From a virus, in IMG/VR virus record IMGVR_UViG_3300025128_000300, positions 1 to 25,418 of that record: a stretch of DNA of 25,418 bases. The stretch is one strand, 5' to 3'. The number at the start of each line of letters is the position of its first letter. The stretch's first letter is position 1. A model generated the notes under the pieces. The model worked only from the letters and a program-made list of their open reading frames with translations, ran no database searches and was not told the DNA's origin. A program made the position numbers and the translations under genes. This document shows, piece by piece, positions 6,001 through 25,205 of this stretch.

Positions 6001-9000
6001 AGATGGTGGTAACTTACGTGTAGATGGTTTAGGTACTAGTCAGGTGTTTCCTATAAGAAAAAGATTAAACTATGCTACAATAAAGTTATGGAGAAAAAGA
6101 ACTAATCAAGTTCAAAAGAAAACAGGTAACCCAGCTGTGTGGGAAACAGAACCAAAACCTTCTATAGTAGATCTTGATTTATATCATGAGGCAAGTGACG
6201 CTTATCCAATAGCAGACCATGGAACAGAGCAAGCGTTGGGTAACAATAGAAATGGTAGTAAGATATGGTACAACTGCTTTAGTTTTGGTAATGGTGTAGA
6301 GTCAGATAGGGTTAGAGACGATTTTAATGGTATACGTATAGATAAAGGCGCCACAGCATCAACAACATTAGACGAGCCATTTGCTGAAGAAAGAAGAAAA
6401 ACAAGTATTACATATTCTGGTTTATTTAACTCTACAAGCGGCGTTAATAAGTTAAATCAATTTATACAAGCAGAAAACATAACAAAAGAAATAAACGATG
6501 CGTATGGCTCTATACAGAAGTTACATGCTAGAGATAATGATCTTACCGTTTTATGTGAAGATAAAGTATTAAAGGTACTTGCAAATAAAGACGCTGTGTT
6601 TGAAGCAGATGGCGATGCTAGATTAGTATCGACAAATAATGTTTTAGGTCAGGCCATACCTTACGCTGGTGATTTTGGTATAAGTAAAAATCCTGAATCA
6701 TTTGCTGATTTTAGTTATAGAAGTTACTTCTCTGATAAAGATAGAGGTAAGGTGTTAAGGTTATCAATTGATGGTTTAACTGATATATCTAACAAGGGTA
6801 TGGGTGATTACTTTAGTGATCATTTAGCAGAAGCCGATACTAGTGTTATTGGTAGTTATGACGAGAATACTAACAGCTACAACTTAACATGGTCAAACGC
6901 TTGCCATTCAGATACTATTAGTTTTAAAGAAGCTGTAGATGGTTGGCCAAGTAGAAAATCATTTCACCCAGATTATGGTATATCACTTGACAATACGTAC
7001 TACACGTTTAAAAATGGTGACTTGCATAAACATACACACGAGGTTAACAAAAACACGTTTCATGGCGCCGCACAAGCAGACTCAACTATAGACATTATAT
7101 TTAATGAAAATAGAAACGCTATAAAGAAATTTAAAACACTTAACTACGAAGGTGACAGTGGTTGGGTTGCAGACGAAATAACAACAGATCAAGAAACTGG
7201 AGCGGACGTTACGTTTAAAGCAAAAGAAAATAAGTACTTTGCTCACATGAAGCATGTTAAGAAACATAAAGTTACTGTCACTGTTGATAATAGTGACGAT
7301 GGTCCTGTAGATATAGGTGTTGGTACTGTTTCTTTTAAAATAACACCTGGAACAACCGCGACAAACACATATACGTTTATTGCCAAACCAAAATCAGGAA
7401 CTACGTTTGATTCAGTGTTTACATTTGGAAGTTACAATACAACGTACTTATCTAGCTCTGATACATCAGCATCAATAAACTCAGATGGTAACATGGTAAT
7501 TACTACAAAGTTAAATAGTTTTAAAATGCCACCTGAAAATATTGACTTAACGTTACCTATTGTAACGTCTGGTAAAACTTCTAATTCTTCATTTACTCTA
7601 GCTGGTACGTTCAATAAAAGTGTAGAAAACTCTTCAATAAACGATATTAATAGCGGTGGCCTTATATCAGCTTCAGCAACTGACGGATCTTCATGGACAA
7701 CATCAGGTAGTAGCAACACTAGCGTAACATTATTAGATGTGTTAGTTACACCTCACTCAAACCATGAGTTCACAGATGATAACTTACCACAGTTAATAGT
7801 AACAGGTGACATTGAAGATAACTACGAAGTAACTGGACCAACAGCACAGGGCACGGGATATACATTTAAAGTTGTTGGATCAAGAGTTAATAAAAATCTT
7901 ACAGCTGAAAATATTAAACTAATATCTAAACCAAACAAAGCTGTTAGTCTTGAAACTAACGCTATATTTGCCGCAGAAATATCACAAGAAGATTTTGCTA
8001 AAGATGAAGAAGAAAGAGAGATAATAGTTAGAGGATCTGTTGGAGCACAAGTTTTATTAGGTGCGAGTGTTGTTTCGTCAACAGGCACTGATCTTGCTAT
8101 CAATATATTAGACGGTAATGGGTTTTCAACAGGCCAAAAAACATTAACAGTAGGTGATAATGGACAAGCAAAAGCAATAATAAAAGTTACGGCTAACAGT
8201 ACAAGTGCAAGACGAAACGTGTTTATATTACTTAGTGAAGCTACAGGATACGTAATAACAGACGAGTTTGATAACTCTGATGGTACAGATGATTCTAAAG
8301 TTTTATTTACTATACCTCAAACATTATTAGTACATATCAGTGGATTTTTAATAGTATCTGAATCTACATTTCCACATAATACGTTTAGCTCGCTACCTGC
8401 TGGACCAAACAATAGTATACAGTTCCAAGCCCAGTTAACAAACGATTCGGTACTAGGTACAAACCCAGGTACATCTGTGCAAATGAACGAAGCACAAGCT
8501 TCTACTAGTTTAATGAGGATGCCTGCTAACACAGAGTTTCCTACAGAAAACAATAGGTTCTCTCAAATATTCAGTGTTGCAAGGCACAATGCAGCTGATA
8601 ACCAAAGTTTAATTGTTAAGGTAGACGATCTTGATGTAGAAAATGATTTCTTAAAAACTGATGGTACTAACGCATACGATTCTAGCACTGGTAACCTTGT
8701 GCTGGCTAACGGTAGTATATTAAAGGTTGTTGATCATAGGTTTGGTATAATTGGTACAGGTGGTAGAGGTAATATAACTGTACAATTTGACATACTTAAA
8801 TACGGTACAGCTGATGACTACGTTGTACTAAAAACACAGAACGTACTTGAATTATCTCAAAACGTTGGTGGCTCAGGCTCTACAGTGTCAACAACAACAT
8901 TAACTGGAGCAGGTAGTTATATTAATAGCGATATAGATGAAAGAGCTGGTGGTGTGTTTGCTACACTAGCAGATAACGGAGCATTAGAGTTTCAGTATAC

Positions 9001-9250
9001 AGTAACATTTTTAGCTGCTGCTGCAGGTAAGTTTGTTGATGAGTTTCAAGTTGCTTACAGCTCACTTAGTGCAAATATAGATAACAACACATCAGATACT
9101 TACCTTGTACTAGATAGTGGATCAGGTGATAAGTTTGGTAGAATAAGAGAAGGTGATACAGCGACAGCTAACTTTAAAGTGTTAGCCAACGGTGCAATAA
9201 CAGGTGGTACGGCAGTAAGTGCAACAGTAACAGTAAGTTTATTAAATTAA
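3041..9250 (+). CDS. Giant tail hub/nozzle protein with beta-rich C-terminal extension
   Basis: A 2069-aa protein. The N-terminus has MNKDLDERLIPQGEYRDALN (13-32) followed by VSTSE and, near residue 70, a blade-like stretch ENNKIYWFVACNNRDAILEY. I remember this signature from large structural proteins of marine and crAss-like phages that form the distal tail (P22 gp10 / crAss muzzle type). A second recurrent block is SFHPDYGISL (from 1307), YYTFKNGDL and FKTLNYEG (1364-1371). Residues about 1410-2069 are Thr/Ser/Asn-rich, low in Cys and full of alternating beta patterns (KVTVTVD, VSFKITPG and others), like stacked Ig-like domains. This is several times longer than P22 gp10 (about 470 aa). It sits where T7 has gp12 (nozzle), between ring genes and ejection genes. 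With no separate tail-fibre gene in the window, the C-terminal part is a candidate receptor-contacting region. Confidence 0.72.
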   Translation: MPEFRREFLKSKMNKDLDERLIPQGEYRDALNIEVSTSETSDAFAIEASNGTKLIKSMPSNYDEPKCIGAARDTENNKIYWFVACNNRDAILEYDVEADVVSPVAVAVKATSDVFKFNKNFFITGINIIDDLLFFTDNNSEPKKININRFKAATNGDFEAHTQIYGGNLLEEHITVIKKYPKAAPNLVIKRTLRDGIVDATFIDTDGDAFVDADESTTPKSIGSEISLILTGQPDYKEDDILKITTTDNSNVYTARVVVKSIDDVTSISQRVTVILLSTSEEMISVDKQLWNVELEEGDSFFQDKFPRFAYRWKYNDGEYSAFSPFTGVAFIPDDENFVYNMEEGHNVNMVNNVRKITLNTFDTLPPDVVEVDVLYKESNAANIYLVSTLKNKEKSIVITSEQIEKTIESNQSLRPYDNVPRKAKAQEITAGRLMYGNYLQNNTFRDDVVIKLTVTPTEVDRNKPEPSAKSLRTYQVGVVYLDEFGRQSPVFASSKGGSLKLDGTYADKKNTLKAKINSDAPTWATHYKYYIKENSNEYYNVIMDRFYEGEEDNFWLSFPSSERNKVTTDDYLILKKQNGKNVAFDPDEYGVKSQKYKILDIQDEPPEFIAKKKELLGELADSSRLFPDTLVGHPREGFRTFRVAGDKIGVDDSELRDIANNDNFINQNKFIRITDITDVRATNYYQIEKVLKVDANDDGDFKDSGDYYEFTLAKKFGADVNWVGTKDNRVTGLKLQLFSEETIIQNEEFSGRFFVKLKRDNIIAENIFGGPTDEFDQVGEAKFKLFDFNDSKGATKTLTAKQRGLSTIYIDDARRSDFAGAGFVIEHDLDKDGNKPTGDLASGTTAFTVNNANGSVVLENNIVGPKKGNNRLMLRYIDYGDDRKNSDTTAPKERDFTARNDENKRITGQSDFQFHEMLRGQKGLYLSFAGDPDQHRIRIKNVFITAVRNFNSTRRHSSSANRGIRYDILLEKPIPWGPLASQTGGTDGGNLRVDGLGTSQVFPIRKRLNYATIKLWRKRTNQVQKKTGNPAVWETEPKPSIVDLDLYHEASDAYPIADHGTEQALGNNRNGSKIWYNCFSFGNGVESDRVRDDFNGIRIDKGATASTTLDEPFAEERRKTSITYSGLFNSTSGVNKLNQFIQAENITKEINDAYGSIQKLHARDNDLTVLCEDKVLKVLANKDAVFEADGDARLVSTNNVLGQAIPYAGDFGISKNPESFADFSYRSYFSDKDRGKVLRLSIDGLTDISNKGMGDYFSDHLAEADTSVIGSYDENTNSYNLTWSNACHSDTISFKEAVDGWPSRKSFHPDYGISLDNTYYTFKNGDLHKHTHEVNKNTFHGAAQADSTIDIIFNENRNAIKKFKTLNYEGDSGWVADEITTDQETGADVTFKAKENKYFAHMKHVKKHKVTVTVDNSDDGPVDIGVGTVSFKITPGTTATNTYTFIAKPKSGTTFDSVFTFGSYNTTYLSSSDTSASINSDGNMVITTKLNSFKMPPENIDLTLPIVTSGKTSNSSFTLAGTFNKSVENSSINDINSGGLISASATDGSSWTTSGSSNTSVTLLDVLVTPHSNHEFTDDNLPQLIVTGDIEDNYEVTGPTAQGTGYTFKVVGSRVNKNLTAENIKLISKPNKAVSLETNAIFAAEISQEDFAKDEEEREIIVRGSVGAQVLLGASVVSSTGTDLAINILDGNGFSTGQKTLTVGDNGQAKAIIKVTANSTSARRNVFILLSEATGYVITDEFDNSDGTDDSKVLFTIPQTLLVHISGFLIVSESTFPHNTFSSLPAGPNNSIQFQAQLTNDSVLGTNPGTSVQMNEAQASTSLMRMPANTEFPTENNRFSQIFSVARHNAADNQSLIVKVDDLDVENDFLKTDGTNAYDSSTGNLVLANGSILKVVDHRFGIIGTGGRGNITVQFDILKYGTADDYVVLKTQNVLELSQNVGGSGSTVSTTTLTGAGSYINSDIDERAGGVFATLADNGALEFQYTVTFLAAAAGKFVDEFQVAYSSLSANIDNNTSDTYLVLDSGSGDKFGRIREGDTATANFKVLANGAITGGTAVSATVTVSLLN

Positions 9251-9254
9251 TAAT

Positions 9255-9767
9255 ATGGCAAACGGAACAATATCATTTAGTGAAATACCAGCAGACATAG
9301 AAGCAAAAAATGCAGCTGGTTATAACGGTTTTGACGTAGACGATAGAGCGTACGATCTATTGTATGTTTCAGATATATCATCTGGCACAATGGCTACACC
9401 TTATTTAGTTGGCCCTATAGTAGCAAAAAGCAAAACAGTATTAACAATAGACACAAGTGTGTATGATACAGCATCATATAACGGTTCATTATCAGAGCAC
9501 ACTATAGATTTAAAAGATATACTTAATATTGGTTTAGGTATATCAACGGCTAATAGTGATGTTTTTGAAGTTGTGGGAGCCACATGGCCTTTTGCAGATA
9601 GTGCAGCCAGACACAACTATTACTTCTTTGTTGTTAAAGATAGGGTAGCACAAAACAATGGTTTACTGGGTTACTACATGCAAGTTCAAATGAGGTTAAC
9701 ACCTGGTAGCACTAAAAAGACTGAACTATTTGCGGTAGGTACTGAGATATTTGAGAGTAGTAAATAA
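9255..9767 (+). CDS. Small virion protein of unknown fold
   Basis: A 170-aa protein that I do not recognise. It is beta-rich: TISFSEIPADI at the start, then DLLYVSDI, PYLVGPIVAKSKTVLTIDTSVYD, and later YYFFVVKDRVAQNNGLLGYYMQVQMRL. It ends in ELFAVGTEIFESSK. It has no Cys, signal peptide or membrane segment. It starts 4 nt after the hub gene (aattaataatATG) and precedes the ejection genes by 40 nt. That is the relative position of T7 gene 13 (138 aa). A small tail or capsid-associated virion protein, perhaps a partner of the hub, is likely from context only. Confidence 0.82.
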   Translation: MANGTISFSEIPADIEAKNAAGYNGFDVDDRAYDLLYVSDISSGTMATPYLVGPIVAKSKTVLTIDTSVYDTASYNGSLSEHTIDLKDILNIGLGISTANSDVFEVVGATWPFADSAARHNYYFFVVKDRVAQNNGLLGYYMQVQMRLTPGSTKKTELFAVGTEIFESSK

Positions 9768-9807
9768 TATGAAATTTAGGTAATTATAATAAGATAAGAA
9801 TAATAAT

Positions 9808-10425
9808 ATGGGATTTTTTCAAAATTTAAATTTAGATACTTCGGTTGGTATGTCCGGCGCCGCAGACGTTGCGGGTGGCTTAGCTAACGTTGTAAGTGGA
9901 ATAGTAGGTGGTAGAGAGAGAAGAAAAGAACAAGCTTTAGCTAGGGAAGAGTTTGAAAGAAGAAAAGCACAATTTGAACAAGCTGATTACTTTGGTACTG
10001 TTATGGCAAACCCATTTGCTAATGTTACTGTAAATCAAAGACAGGCTAATTTCTTAGCAAGACAACAACAACAAGGTTTAGGTAATACTATGGCACAACT
10101 AAGAGGTGCTGCAGGTGGATCAGGTATTGCAGGCTTAGCGCAGTCTATATCACAACAACAAATGTCAAACCTAGAGCAAATATCTGGAAGTATTGGCCAA
10201 CAAGAGTCTGTAAATCAAAGGTTAATGGGTCAGGGTAACATATACAGAGCTCAATCATTAGCAGACGCGGAGCAGAGAGTAAGAGACAAAGGAGAAACAA
10301 TATATACTTTAGCAGCACAAAGAAAGCAAATAGCAGATCAAGCTAGAAAAGATGCAACAGAAGCATTAGCTGGTGGTATAATGGACGTTGGCGTTGGTGT
10401 TGGTAAAATGTTAATCGGAGCATAA
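9808..10425 (+). CDS. Internal virion/ejection protein, T7 gp14-like
   Basis: A 205-aa protein with a Gly/Ala-rich hydrophobic segment at 11-35 (SGAADVAGGLANVVSGIVGG). A charged helix with RERRKEQALAREEFERRKAQFEQ follows at 36-58, then a Gln-rich helical middle (80-180, e.g. ARQQQQG and SISQQQMSNLEQ). A second Gly-rich hydrophobic end (188-205) reads GGIMDVGVGVGKMLIGA. Paired hydrophobic ends around a coiled, Gln-rich core are typical of small ejection proteins such as T7 gp14 (196 aa) and P22 gp7, which are thought to enter the outer membrane and start the DNA channel. It is the first of three consecutive candidates. Homology to gp14 itself is not proven. Confidence 0.72.
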   Translation: MGFFQNLNLDTSVGMSGAADVAGGLANVVSGIVGGRERRKEQALAREEFERRKAQFEQADYFGTVMANPFANVTVNQRQANFLARQQQQGLGNTMAQLRGAAGGSGIAGLAQSISQQQMSNLEQISGSIGQQESVNQRLMGQGNIYRAQSLADAEQRVRDKGETIYTLAAQRKQIADQARKDATEALAGGIMDVGVGVGKMLIGA

Positions 10426-21280: not shown

Positions 21281-21337
21281 ATGGCAGCAAAAACACAACA
21301 ACTAAATCACTTTCATAATGGCAGAAATATTAGATAA
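21281..21337 (+). CDS. Possible 18-codon leader ORF before the lysis cassette
   Basis: ATG at 21281 opens a frame MAAKTQQLNHFHNGRNIR that stops at 21335-21337, 20 nt inside the next gene. Its upstream sequence (taattataaattATGGCAG) matches the start contexts used elsewhere in the window better than the ATG at 21318 does (ctttcataATGGCAG). It could be a translated leader that feeds ribosomes to the downstream start, a remnant of a lost gene, or chance. Only the start context supports it. Confidence 0.3.
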   Translation: MAAKTQQLNHFHNGRNIR

Positions 21338-21611
21338 ACAAGTAGGTATTGATATAGATGGCGATAAAAAGCCAGATATAAAACTCGATATTAAGAGTAT
21401 AGCTATCGTTGTAGGTTTTATTATTAGTGGCTCTATGGGTTATCAAAGCCTAAAACAAGAGATAGAGCTTGCTAAAGAACTACCTGTTTACGAAGTTAAA
21501 GAAACCTCTGATGGTTTATTACTTAAACAAAAGGTTGAATATCTTGAGAAAGAAATAGAAAACCTAGAGGACAAAGTAAAAGATATCGAGAACAAAGTAT
21601 ACAAAAGATAA
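21318..21611 (+). CDS. One-TM coiled-coil protein, holin or inner spanin candidate
   Basis: A 97-aa protein. Residues 12-24 form an Asp-rich loop IDIDGDKKPDIKLD (D12, D14, D16 and D20), similar to EF-hand or dockerin calcium loops. Residues 26-44 are one hydrophobic helix (KSIAIVVGFIISGSMGYQS). Residues 67-97 are a heptad-type coiled coil (LLKQKVEYLEKEIENLEDKV). It opens the lysis cassette, 4 nt before the endolysin. One N-terminal TM helix followed by a periplasmic coiled coil is the layout of an Rz-type inner spanin; a class III-like holin is the alternative. Sequence alone does not decide. Confidence 0.72.
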   Translation: MAEILDKQVGIDIDGDKKPDIKLDIKSIAIVVGFIISGSMGYQSLKQEIELAKELPVYEVKETSDGLLLKQKVEYLEKEIENLEDKVKDIENKVYKR

Positions 21612-21615
21612 ATAA

Positions 21616-22077
21616 ATGATTAGTAAACACATAAGTATGCGTGAAGGCACGTATAGCGTTACAGCAACAAGATTAGGTTTAGAAAACAAACCAACTGAAG
21701 AACATCTTAACAACATGAAGTTGTTAGCTGTAAAAGTGTTTGAACCACTTAGAGAGTGGGTAGGTGGTCCTATTAGAATAAATTCATTTTATCGTGGACC
21801 AGAGTTAAACAAAGCTATCGGCGGTAGTAATAAGTCACAACATTGTCACGGGCAAGCTGTTGACATAGATGACGTGTATGGACACAAAACAAACGCTGAG
21901 ATGTTTAACTATATAAAAGATAACTTAGAATTTGATCAAATGATCTGGGAGTTTGGCGATAGCAAAAATCCAGACTGGGTACATGTAAGTTATGTTAATC
22001 CAGGCGAAAACAGAAACAGATGCTTAGTAGCGTTTAGAAAAGATGGAAGAACTCAGTACGCAAACTACGCAGCTTGA
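21616..22077 (+). CDS. M15-type peptidase endolysin
   Basis: A 153-aa zinc peptidase of the M15 (D-Ala-D-Ala carboxypeptidase / L-Ala-D-Glu endopeptidase) type that cuts peptidoglycan cross-link peptides. The family signature SxHxxGxAxD is intact at 74-83 (SQHCHGQAVD), giving zinc ligands H76 and D83. The third ligand is H123 in DWVHVSY, with the probable catalytic E112 in MIWEFGD just before it. The preceding GGPIRINSFYRGPELNKAIGG (50-70) is the usual lead-in to the motif. It has no signal peptide, so it needs a holin to reach the wall. Length fits single-domain phage M15 endolysins. It starts 4 nt after the one-TM gene, and its 3' end overlaps the next small gene by 35 nt. Confidence 0.93.
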   Translation: MISKHISMREGTYSVTATRLGLENKPTEEHLNNMKLLAVKVFEPLREWVGGPIRINSFYRGPELNKAIGGSNKSQHCHGQAVDIDDVYGHKTNAEMFNYIKDNLEFDQMIWEFGDSKNPDWVHVSYVNPGENRNRCLVAFRKDGRTQYANYAA

Positions 22078-22174
22078 TATAATAGTATTTTCAGTTTTTG
22101 TTGCGTTAGCGTACATAACAAAACTTCTTGTAACTAATATCCCAGAAGATAATGATACAAACAATAAGGAATAA
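22043..22174 (+). CDS. Tiny one-TM protein overlapping the endolysin
   Basis: A 43-aa frame, ATG at 22043 to TAA at 22172-22174, beginning 35 nt before the endolysin stop in a different frame. It has a short polar head (MEELSTQTTQ), one hydrophobic helix at 12-30 (DIIVFSVFVALAYITKLLV) and an acidic polar tail (NIPEDNDTNNKE). This is a well-formed small membrane protein. It fills what would otherwise be a gap and lies in an overlapping chain of lysis genes. A holin, antiholin or lysis accessory role is likely from context. No family recognised. Confidence 0.66.
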   Translation: MEELSTQTTQLDIIVFSVFVALAYITKLLVTNIPEDNDTNNKE

Positions 22175-22286
22175 ATGGAACAATAAAAAACCAGAAAGTA
22201 AAGTAGTATTTATAATATTTGTACTACAGATCACCTGGTTAATAACCATACTTGTTGCACATTACATTTTTAAACTTTGGACATGA
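22152..22286 (+). CDS. Second tiny one-TM protein of the lysis cassette
   Basis: A 44-aa frame, ATG at 22152 to TGA at 22284-22286. It overlaps the preceding 43-aa gene by 23 nt and shares an ATGA stop/start overlap with the lipoprotein gene. A basic N-terminal head (MIQTIRNKWNNKKPESK) is followed by one strongly hydrophobic helix at 18-40 (VVFIIFVLQITWLITILVAHY) and a short tail KLWT. The basic head predicts N-in topology. A small holin-like or accessory lysis protein is plausible; no family recognised. Both the overlaps and the composition argue that it is real. Confidence 0.66.
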   Translation: MIQTIRNKWNNKKPESKVVFIIFVLQITWLITILVAHYIFKLWT

Positions 22287-22750
22287 CAGATAAACAGAGA
22301 GACTTAGGTAGACTTATAACGTTAGCAATACTACTCAGTGTATTACTTATAGGTATATTATCTAGTTGCTCACCTTTGTTATATGATCGTAATCAAGTTA
22401 TGGTAACGCATGTATTAGCGTTAACTGAAATGGGTGACACTGTTAAAATAAGAATACAAGATATACAACCACAAAGGATGTACAACGTAGTTGGCTACGA
22501 CTTTGTAAGATGGCAAGATAACAGGTATTATGTACCACACTATGATCGTCATTACGATTATAGATATCATGACAGCAGGTGGAGATACCATGGTAGTCCA
22601 AAAGGTAACTACGGTTACATAACACCAAACCCTAATATAAATAATAGCCCACCTATATCTGTAGGTAGTGGCCAAACTACTGGAGGTAGCGGTGCTCCTG
22701 TTGCAAGTAACCCTGTTACTTCAACTGGTGGAGGTAAAAAATTTAATTAA
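22283..22750 (+). CDS. Outer-membrane lipoprotein in the lysis cassette (outer spanin candidate)
   Basis: I place the start at ATG 22283, inside the ATGA overlap with the previous stop; an in-frame TTG at 22277 is less likely. The 155-aa product has a lipoprotein signal: basic head, hydrophobic LITLAILLSVLLIGIL and lipobox LSSC with C29 as the lipidated residue. After it comes a Tyr/His/Arg-rich stretch (VPHYDRHYDYRYHDSRWRYHG) and a Ser/Gly/Pro/Asn-rich disordered end. The residues after C29 (SPLLYDRN) lack the acidic export tag of surface lipoproteins in Bacteroidota, so it probably faces the periplasm. A lipoprotein after an endolysin suggests an outer spanin working with the coiled-coil TM protein at 21318-21611. 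Confidence 0.74.
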   Translation: MTDKQRDLGRLITLAILLSVLLIGILSSCSPLLYDRNQVMVTHVLALTEMGDTVKIRIQDIQPQRMYNVVGYDFVRWQDNRYYVPHYDRHYDYRYHDSRWRYHGSPKGNYGYITPNPNINNSPPISVGSGQTTGGSGAPVASNPVTSTGGGKKFN

Positions 22751-24051: not shown

Positions 24052-24305
24052 TGCCAAAGAGTAAAGTAAAAGGTGGTGGAACAAGAAAGGTTTGTTTGCC
24101 ATACGCAAAATATAAGAGTATGAGTAAAGCAGAAAGGCAAAAAGTAATTAATGCCAAGAGATCTGCTGCAGCTCAAGGAAAATATAAAAGATCTAGTAAG
24201 TCAAATGTAAAAGGTGCTAGGAAAAAAGGCGCTACATTACGTGACTGGTTCCAAAAAGAAAACTGGGTTAACATAGCCAACGGCAAGCCTTGCGGCGCAA
24301 AATGA
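24051..24305 (+). CDS. Small basic protein with LRDWFxKENWV motif
   Basis: An 84-aa frame from ATG 24051 to TGA 24303-24305. It contains GGGTRKVCLPYAKYKSMSKA, a Lys/Arg/Ser helix (QGKYKRSSKSNVKGARKKG), and a closing LRDWFQKENWVNIANGKPCG. The combination GTRKVCLP...KSMSKxxRxKVxxAK...RSSKxNVKGARKKGATLRDWFxKENWV recurs, from memory, in marine phages. The last segment also resembles a short motif in other phage and large-virus proteins. Two Cys lie at the two ends. It ends in an ATGA overlap with the membrane protein gene. Function unknown; DNA or RNA contact is a guess from charge. Confidence 0.83.
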   Translation: MPKSKVKGGGTRKVCLPYAKYKSMSKAERQKVINAKRSAAAQGKYKRSSKSNVKGARKKGATLRDWFQKENWVNIANGKPCGAK

Positions 24306-24439
24306 AATTTAACTTTTTTGATTTAAACGAAAATGGTAAATATGATTGGTGGGAATATATACTACCGATATTAATATTGTTAATTATTGAAGTTATAGCT
24401 GAGGTTATAGCTAGATTTTTGACACAGCCGTTTTTTTAG
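24302..24439 (+). CDS. Tiny membrane protein with EF-hand-like loop
   Basis: A 45-aa frame from ATG 24302 (ATGA overlap with the previous stop) to TAG 24437-24439. It opens MKFNFFDLNENGKYDWWEYI. D7, N9, N11, K13 (backbone position), D15 and E18 occupy EF-hand loop positions 1, 3, 5, 7, 9 and 12, with Gly at 6. A hydrophobic helix follows at about 19-40 (ILPILILLIIEVIAEVIARF) carrying two glutamates, E30 and E34. It is the last + strand gene, and its final 29 nt overlap the convergent glycosyltransferase gene. No family recognised. Confidence 0.72.
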   Translation: MKFNFFDLNENGKYDWWEYILPILILLIIEVIAEVIARFLTQPFF

Positions 24440-25205
24440 CCACACTTCTTATTATCTTCTGGCCTTTCATCCAGCCAGTATATTCAACTTTTTTTCTAGA
24501 CATATCGCTTAACACGTGCCACGTAAGCAAACCATCACGGTCTAATTTACTAACATATTGGTTTTCTAATATACGATCATGAGCCGAGTGCTTTGTAGTA
24601 TATAAAGGTAAATGCCAACTGTGAGGATCACACTCGCCGTTACCATCTTTTACGTTCTTAGCCATGTATGAATTTTTCTTTACACTCTTATGAAAGAAGT
24701 CAAAGCCAATAATACTCAAGTTCTTATGAGTTTTAATTTCCCTAATAAAATATAGTATTGTTAAAAACCCAGCTGAAGGCCTGAGTTGTAAACTGTATAA
24801 TGAATTACCAAAGCCGTTCCATAATTCTTCTAGCTCTGCATCTGACCACATCTGAGTATAAGGCATACCCTTTGGCAGGTGATCTTCTAATATCCAGTTC
24901 TTAAGTAAAAAATTACCACGACATCTATTAAGTAATATTTCAACGTCTTTAAACTTACCCTTTGTAAATTCTTCATTACGTCTTATCCAAACAGGCGCTC
25001 TAAATTGACCAGTAACCCATATGTTTGTTTTACTACCTAATTGTTTTGTTTTATCATCTGCTACTGTATCAACAGCTCTACCAAAGCGCACAACGATATC
25101 ATGACTGTCTATAAACTTACCATGATCATGGTGCATTAATTCTACAGAGTTGCCAACAAGTATTACTGATTTATTTTTTACAAGCTGTTGTATACGTTCC
25201 ACCAC
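24411..25205 (-). CDS. GT29 (sialyltransferase-fold) glycosyltransferase
   Basis: A 264-aa protein with the sialylmotifs of glycosyltransferase family 29. Motif L at 13-45 reads SVILVGNSVELMHHDHG then IDSHDIVVRFGRA. Motif S at 143-171 reads PSAGFLTILYF then LSIIGFDFF. Motif VS is H209-x4-E214 (HDRILE). Known GT29 enzymes use CMP-sialic acid, where the His of VS is the catalytic base; the donor here may be another sugar. It has no signal peptide or TM segment, so it is cytoplasmic. Its GTG start at 25205 (or 25202) overlaps the upstream gene by 28 nt; a TGA lies upstream in frame and there is no ATG. The stop overlaps the convergent membrane gene. Likely targets are lipopolysaccharide, virion glycans or modified DNA bases; the sequence does not say which. 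Confidence 0.86.
   Translation of the reverse strand: MVERIQQLVKNKSVILVGNSVELMHHDHGKFIDSHDIVVRFGRAVDTVADDKTKQLGSKTNIWVTGQFRAPVWIRRNEEFTKGKFKDVEILLNRCRGNFLLKNWILEDHLPKGMPYTQMWSDAELEELWNGFGNSLYSLQLRPSAGFLTILYFIREIKTHKNLSIIGFDFFHKSVKKNSYMAKNVKDGNGECDPHSWHLPLYTTKHSAHDRILENQYVSKLDRDGLLTWHVLSDMSRKKVEYTGWMKGQKIIRSVAKKTAVSKI

Follow-up and report, generated by a model that had tools for sequence, protein, structure and literature searches.

The region around the M15 endolysin gene of an uncultured marine tailed phage, whose host is probably a member of the Bacteroidota (Flavobacteriales-like), is well supported as a phage lysis cassette, and two tiny membrane genes within it, mini1 and mini2, are, on the sequence evidence, both real genes. 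The cassette is a variant of an already known type of gene cassette and not a new kind of system. Its assignment follows from the presence of an M15 endolysin with conserved zinc-ligand motifs and neither signal peptide nor SAR helix, accompanied by membrane and lipoprotein genes in lysis-associated slots; at the level of the single genes the lysis reading is weaker than at that of the cassette, and is best called plausible. The sequence analysed, by computational means, is the entire 25,418-base IMG/VR virus record (the window). No cultured close relatives of the window phage were found, and its 97-aa coiled-coil protein, lipoprotein and minis could not be credibly matched to any of 50,697 phage records.

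Cassette layout, endolysin and probable host

An initial annotation had described five tightly packed genes, and their coordinates, lengths and 35-, 23- and 4-nt overlaps were all reproduced to the base. The gene order is 97-aa one-TM coiled-coil protein, M15 endolysin, mini1, mini2 and 155-aa lipoprotein, and one further small gene, which closes the gene run, enters the discussion below:

21318..21611, + strand: 97-aa protein with an N-terminal DxDGDxxxD loop, one TM and a C-terminal coiled coil (phrog_10340, AF2)
21616..22077, + strand: M15 endolysin, 153 aa, with motifs SQHCHGQAVDID and WVHVSY (PF08291, phrog_894, alignment)
22043..22174, + strand: mini1, 43 aa, one TM (13-31), 35-nt overlap with the endolysin gene (homologs, coding constraint)
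22152..22286, + strand: mini2, 44 aa, one TM (18-36), 23-nt overlap with mini1 (homologs, coding constraint)
22283..22750, + strand: lipoprotein, 155 aa, starting at ATG 22283, lipobox LSSC (Cys29) (homolog alignment, AF2)
24302..24439, + strand: protein of 45 aa, one TM, whose 12-residue loop is EF-hand-like (DLNENGKYDWWE), end of the gene run

The coiled-coil and endolysin genes do not overlap but are separated by a 4-nt gap, and the 4-nt overlap of mini2 with the lipoprotein gene reads ATGA. The 97-aa gene is preceded by an 18-codon ORF (21281-21337, starting MAAKTQQ), apparently a relic of a 100-aa gene (MAAQKN...) sited there in the related records L018 and L019.

The endolysin matches Peptidase_M15_3 in Pfam (PF08291, 5.2e-15) and the endolysin family phrog_894 (9.4e-32), and lacks a signal peptide or hydrophobic N-terminus, as is characteristic of muralytic enzymes without an export signal. 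Its best cultured match, 52% identical, is found in Bacteroides phage BF10P2. Among the genome matches of its family in GTDB, 33 of 40 are Bacteroidota MAGs or genomes, and the cultured homologs of a 71-aa protein encoded by relatives of the window occur in Flavobacterium phages, which together support, without proving, a Bacteroidota host. Downstream, on the minus strand (24411-25205), lies a gene of the window that Pfam matches to sialyltransferases (GT29); in L005 a sialyltransferase-type gene is followed by genes for KDO-8-phosphate synthase and KDO cytidylyltransferase (8947-10324, minus strand), so that phages of this group carry lipopolysaccharide-sugar genes.

Conservation and loss of mini1 and mini2

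That the minis are genes is argued by their persistence in divergent IMG/VR phages and by purifying selection in frame. Conservation in relatives, on which the initial annotation had staked both frames, was borne out: the mini1 homologs of L013, L017 and L019 are 42-47% identical, with the same 43 codons and the same start/stop frame, mini2 is retained in these three records at 34-39% identity and is also present in a second set of relatives, and gene order and frames are kept throughout the three. When dS and dN were estimated by the Nei-Gojobori method in the non-overlapped parts of the genes, synonymous change was in clear excess for mini1 (window versus L085, dS 0.96 and dN 0.15; window versus L005, dS 0.185 and dN 0.038) as well as for mini2 (L006 versus L014, dS 0.98 and dN 0.155; L013 versus L017, dS 0.45 and dN 0.15). 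This excess is confined to the annotated frame, the other two frames showing none in most comparisons; the pairing of the window's mini2 with the mini2 set of shortened spacing (below), whose alignment was off by one codon, is left out of these results. Both minis are small membrane proteins beside an endolysin and under selection, as expected in a lysis cassette. Constraint within the overlaps, the other check proposed for them, has some support in the 35-nt one: beneath the mini1 start the endolysin Gly codon reads GGA wherever mini1 is present (six sequences) and GGT wherever it is absent (five), and loss of the mini1 ATG is limited to the latter. This is the pattern expected if mini1 constrains the endolysin codon, and it is supportive rather than decisive since the mini1-negative sequences are few and related and may share one event.

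Neither mini family has a match in Pfam, PHROGs, NCBIfam or cultured phages, and neither resembles a described holin family in the three databases. The minis occur in a single clade only, in some 20 records, profile and tblastn searches placing mini1 in 9 and mini2 in 18 IMG/VR loci, with L016 and L019 added for mini2 by a whole-record search; two further profile scans beyond the clade returned only L013, L017 and L019. Disrupted frames in close relatives, which the initial annotation had considered fatal to its proposal, were found for one gene and not for the other. In L006-L012 and L014-L016, whose endolysins are about 88-95% identical (86-95% across the relatives with a broken mini1), mini1 is disrupted, its TM gone and its frame closing early, and the spacing is 93 nt shorter, but mini2 is undisrupted in every relative that has it and is kept under selection in the shortened set as well. 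In that set mini2 has no ATG, and the only plausible start would be a TTG, part of a TTGA in which the gene overlaps the endolysin stop. L018 lacks both minis, while L085 retains both and has lost the lipoprotein. Judging from these losses, mini1 is dispensable, which is compatible with an antiholin role but no proof of it, and the weak resolution of the endolysin tree does not allow the gain or loss of mini1 to be dated. Since the endolysin stop often directly overlaps the lipoprotein ATG in relatives further away, the minis have the appearance of an insertion specific to the clade at this junction, a feature that the initial annotation had missed.

The lipoprotein, the coiled-coil protein and the spanin slot

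An o-spanin-like role is supported for the lipoprotein by its invariant lipobox cysteine, its Pro-rich disordered tail and its slot right after the endolysin. Cys29 is invariant in 37 diverse homologs with differing signal-peptide regions, as would be required of the SPII lipobox of an o-spanin, and the AF2 model, mostly disordered (mean pLDDT 49.7), has a helix at the N-terminus and a small beta hairpin, the Pro/Asn-rich tail being disordered. The protein has a short periplasmic domain and no C-terminal TM, again as in o-spanins, and the absence of this TM led us to reject a unimolecular spanin. In L004 (1158-1534) the lipoprotein ORF is only 107 aa long and the signal-peptide part from the ATG is missing, owing to a frameshift, a sequencing error or decay.

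By synteny with other Bacteroidota loci, the slot after the endolysin is a spanin slot. In three loci from Bacteroidales or other Bacteroidota MAGs (L301, L302 and L307) the M15 endolysin is followed by a u-spanin-like lipoprotein with a C-terminal TM, and in two further Bacteroidota MAG loci (L300 and L323) by an N-TM coiled-coil protein and then a lipoprotein, the L300 coiled coil matching an Rz-like spanin PHROG (4e-4). The post-endolysin gene of phage BF10P2 likewise encodes an N-TM coiled-coil protein.

The 97-aa protein has its TM at about 23-41 and is predicted, from a weak charge bias, to be N-in/C-out. Its AF2 model (mean pLDDT 74) has helices at 25-54 and 64-95, and a structure search with it against the PDB returned nothing useful. 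A DxDGDxxxD calcium-loop-like motif lies right before the TM (window 21318-21380), and paralogs lacking this loop adjoin the coiled-coil gene in relatives. The protein is a candidate for either an i-spanin-like or a class III holin-like part, and the former is plausible. The proposal that it and the lipoprotein bracket the endolysin as a spanin pair therefore stands in part: the lipobox and the slot support the o-spanin-like half, while the pairing is no better than plausible in view of unpaired loci and missing cysteines. Co-occurrence of the two genes is common in the window's group, yet of 27 loci that carry the coiled-coil protein with a GTA-type holin 25 have no such lipoprotein, and neither has L085. 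No periplasmic Cys is present in either protein of the window; in known two-component spanins such residues are typical (507 of 528) without being strictly defining (PMC6139136).

The arrangement resembles two-component spanins such as lambda Rz/Rz1, T4 PseT.3/PseT.2 and those of B40-8 in having a lipobox lipoprotein with Pro-rich disorder beside the endolysin, a partner with an N-terminal TM and a coiled coil, and a combined periplasmic length of about 50 + 127 aa, which falls inside the published range of 62-300 (PMC6139136). It differs from them in that the endolysin and two mini genes separate the partners (about 670 nt apart), in the lack of periplasmic Cys, in pairing that is not strict among relatives, and in having no sequence match to known spanin families. 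With the unimolecular spanins of Bacteroidota phages the lipoprotein shares the slot right after the endolysin and the N-terminal lipoprotein signal but not the C-terminal TM. According to a 2025 survey the spanins of Bacteroidetes phages are exclusively unimolecular (PMC12596118), and such spanins were predicted in two North Sea flavophages, with TM proteins around the lysins (PMC8776804); for Bacteroides phage B40-8 an earlier survey had predicted an i- and an o-spanin about 1 kb apart (PMC6139136). The separated arrangement of the window is thus unusual but precedented.

Candidate holins around the lysis core

The coiled-coil TM protein (or proteins), the endolysin and the lipoprotein form a core common to many divergent records, around which the small membrane genes vary. 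In relatives, secreted thioredoxin-like (Pfam, 3.6e-7) or heavy-metal-associated-domain (HMA; 2.7e-8) proteins are often encoded between the coiled-coil and endolysin genes (examples are L005 4674-4994, L006 4673-4993 and L028 4091-4501); the window has no such gene there. The 71-aa protein, with two TMs, is absent from the window, and its only cultured homolog, in Flavobacterium phage immuto, directly precedes that phage's endolysin and holin. A 59-aa one-TM protein is another variable gene near the core, and a family of 54-56-aa membrane proteins is encoded directly before M15 endolysins (L187 2018-2182, L195 3132-3296 and L301 3809-3979), the L187 copy having no PHROG match. The 45-aa protein is conserved in about 100 IMG/VR stretches (for example, L079, L125 and L203), and its family has no match in Pfam, PHROGs, NCBIfam or cultured phages; its canonical 12-residue EF-hand-like loop, DxNxNGxYDWWE, points to a possible calcium-binding mini membrane protein. 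The 45-aa and 71-aa proteins are candidate holins, rivals to the minis, that the initial annotation had missed. A strict mutual exclusion of the 71-aa protein, the 45-aa protein and the minis was considered and rejected, several records carrying two or all three. In particular, L005, L006, L013 and L017 combine the 71-aa protein with at least one mini, which argues that the minis are not simple replacements for it, and L018 has the 71-aa protein and no minis.

Both minis are small, have at least one TM (from hydropathy only) and neighbour the endolysin, as holins do. Mini1, with an acidic N-terminus, is predicted to be N-out/C-in and mini2, with a basic N-terminus and a short tail (about 8 residues), N-in/C-out. 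The suggestion that they may be holin and antiholin fits their one-TM form, their opposite predicted topologies and their presence and absence, but mini1 is dispensable; mini2 is the stronger holin candidate and mini1 a candidate accessory. Two small TM genes within one lysis cassette are also known as LysF1a/LysF1b of Mycobacterium F1 phages, where LysF1b has, like mini1, one TM and a predicted N-out/C-in topology, but where LysF1a, unlike the minis, has two TMs and 88 aa and the host is of Gram-positive type, and no homology is claimed (PMC13056207). Mini2 and the 97-aa protein resemble class III holins (T4 T, T5) in their single TM with predicted N-in/C-out orientation, but these holins, unlike mini2, have a large periplasmic domain (PMC9636201).

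From the genes, their conservation and coding constraint, the lipobox, synteny and presence or absence, we infer a scheme for topology, hole formation, regulation, coupling and spanin pairing, which has roughly an even chance of being right. The M15 endopeptidase would build up in the cytoplasm and, having no export signal, would need a membrane hole. The small one-TM proteins would meanwhile accumulate in the inner membrane, their translation coupled to that of the endolysin by overlapping start and stop codons; mini2 would be the most likely hole-former, and mini1 its dispensable tuner, as antiholin or co-holin. The endolysin would then get out and cleave peptidoglycan, and the lipoprotein would act from its outer-membrane anchor as o-spanin, its coiled-coil partner in the inner membrane being most simply the 97-aa protein. 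The 63-kb record L019 speaks for the minis: it has both of them but lacks the 71-aa protein, the 45-aa protein and any other recognised holin candidate; if lysis is canonical there, the hole should come from a mini or from the coiled-coil protein, and the minis are favoured since the latter adjoins a separate holin in other phages.

It is unlikely, though far from absurd, that the 97-aa protein is itself the holin, class III-like with N-terminus in and a periplasmic C-terminus, and both minis are lysis-timing accessories. This protein is the sole membrane protein present throughout the clade, it matches phrog_10340 (holin/anti-holin) at 1.4e-4, and L014 and L018 lack the minis in part or altogether. 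Yet the coiled-coil protein often occurs in relatives in two or three paralogous copies, the periplasmic part of T4 T is larger than its own, and in distant relatives it adjoins a separate and convincing GTA-type 3-TM holin (phrog_3427, 5e-25), making it an unlikely holin there. Quite unlikely is a scenario in which the 45-aa EF-hand-loop protein makes the hole and the minis do another membrane job such as superinfection exclusion. Its conservation reaches far past the mini-bearing clade and it is present in the window, where the 71-aa candidate is missing, but its gene lies 1.5 kb past that of the lipoprotein and is lacking from L019, whereas the minis occupy the interval from endolysin to lipoprotein, their overlaps suggesting co-expression. 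That mini1 and mini2 make up one split antiparallel two-helix holin, or a frameshift-joined two-TM protein, would agree with the opposite charge distribution across the TMs of their homologs and with the adjacency and overlap retained in divergent relatives; the survival of mini2 alone once mini1 is lost renders it very unlikely. Finally, it is hardly credible, and was rejected in view of conservation in divergent phages and in-frame purifying selection, that the mini frames are merely chance openings in AT-rich DNA, common as short ORFs with TM-like stretches are in the window.

Beyond this preferred scheme, in which mini2 would form the hole, it is possible, though we put it forward with more doubt than confidence, that marine Bacteroidota phages combine a fixed lysis core (coiled-coil protein, M15 endolysin and separated lipoprotein o-spanin) with freely swapped, unrelated tiny membrane proteins; the small membrane genes seen near the core are the GTA-type 3-TM holin, the 71-aa two-TM, 45-aa EF-hand-loop one-TM and 59-aa one-TM proteins, and mini1/mini2. 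If so, mini2 (about 37-47 aa) would rank with the smallest holins, at times alongside a partner of opposite orientation. For most phages of Bacteroidota, annotations of holins and spanins are lacking. In the present group a candidate two-component spanin arrangement recurs, against the survey conclusion that only unimolecular spanins occur, and there are several unrelated tiny holin candidates overlooked by length cut-offs, for which natural presence and absence may serve as a guide.
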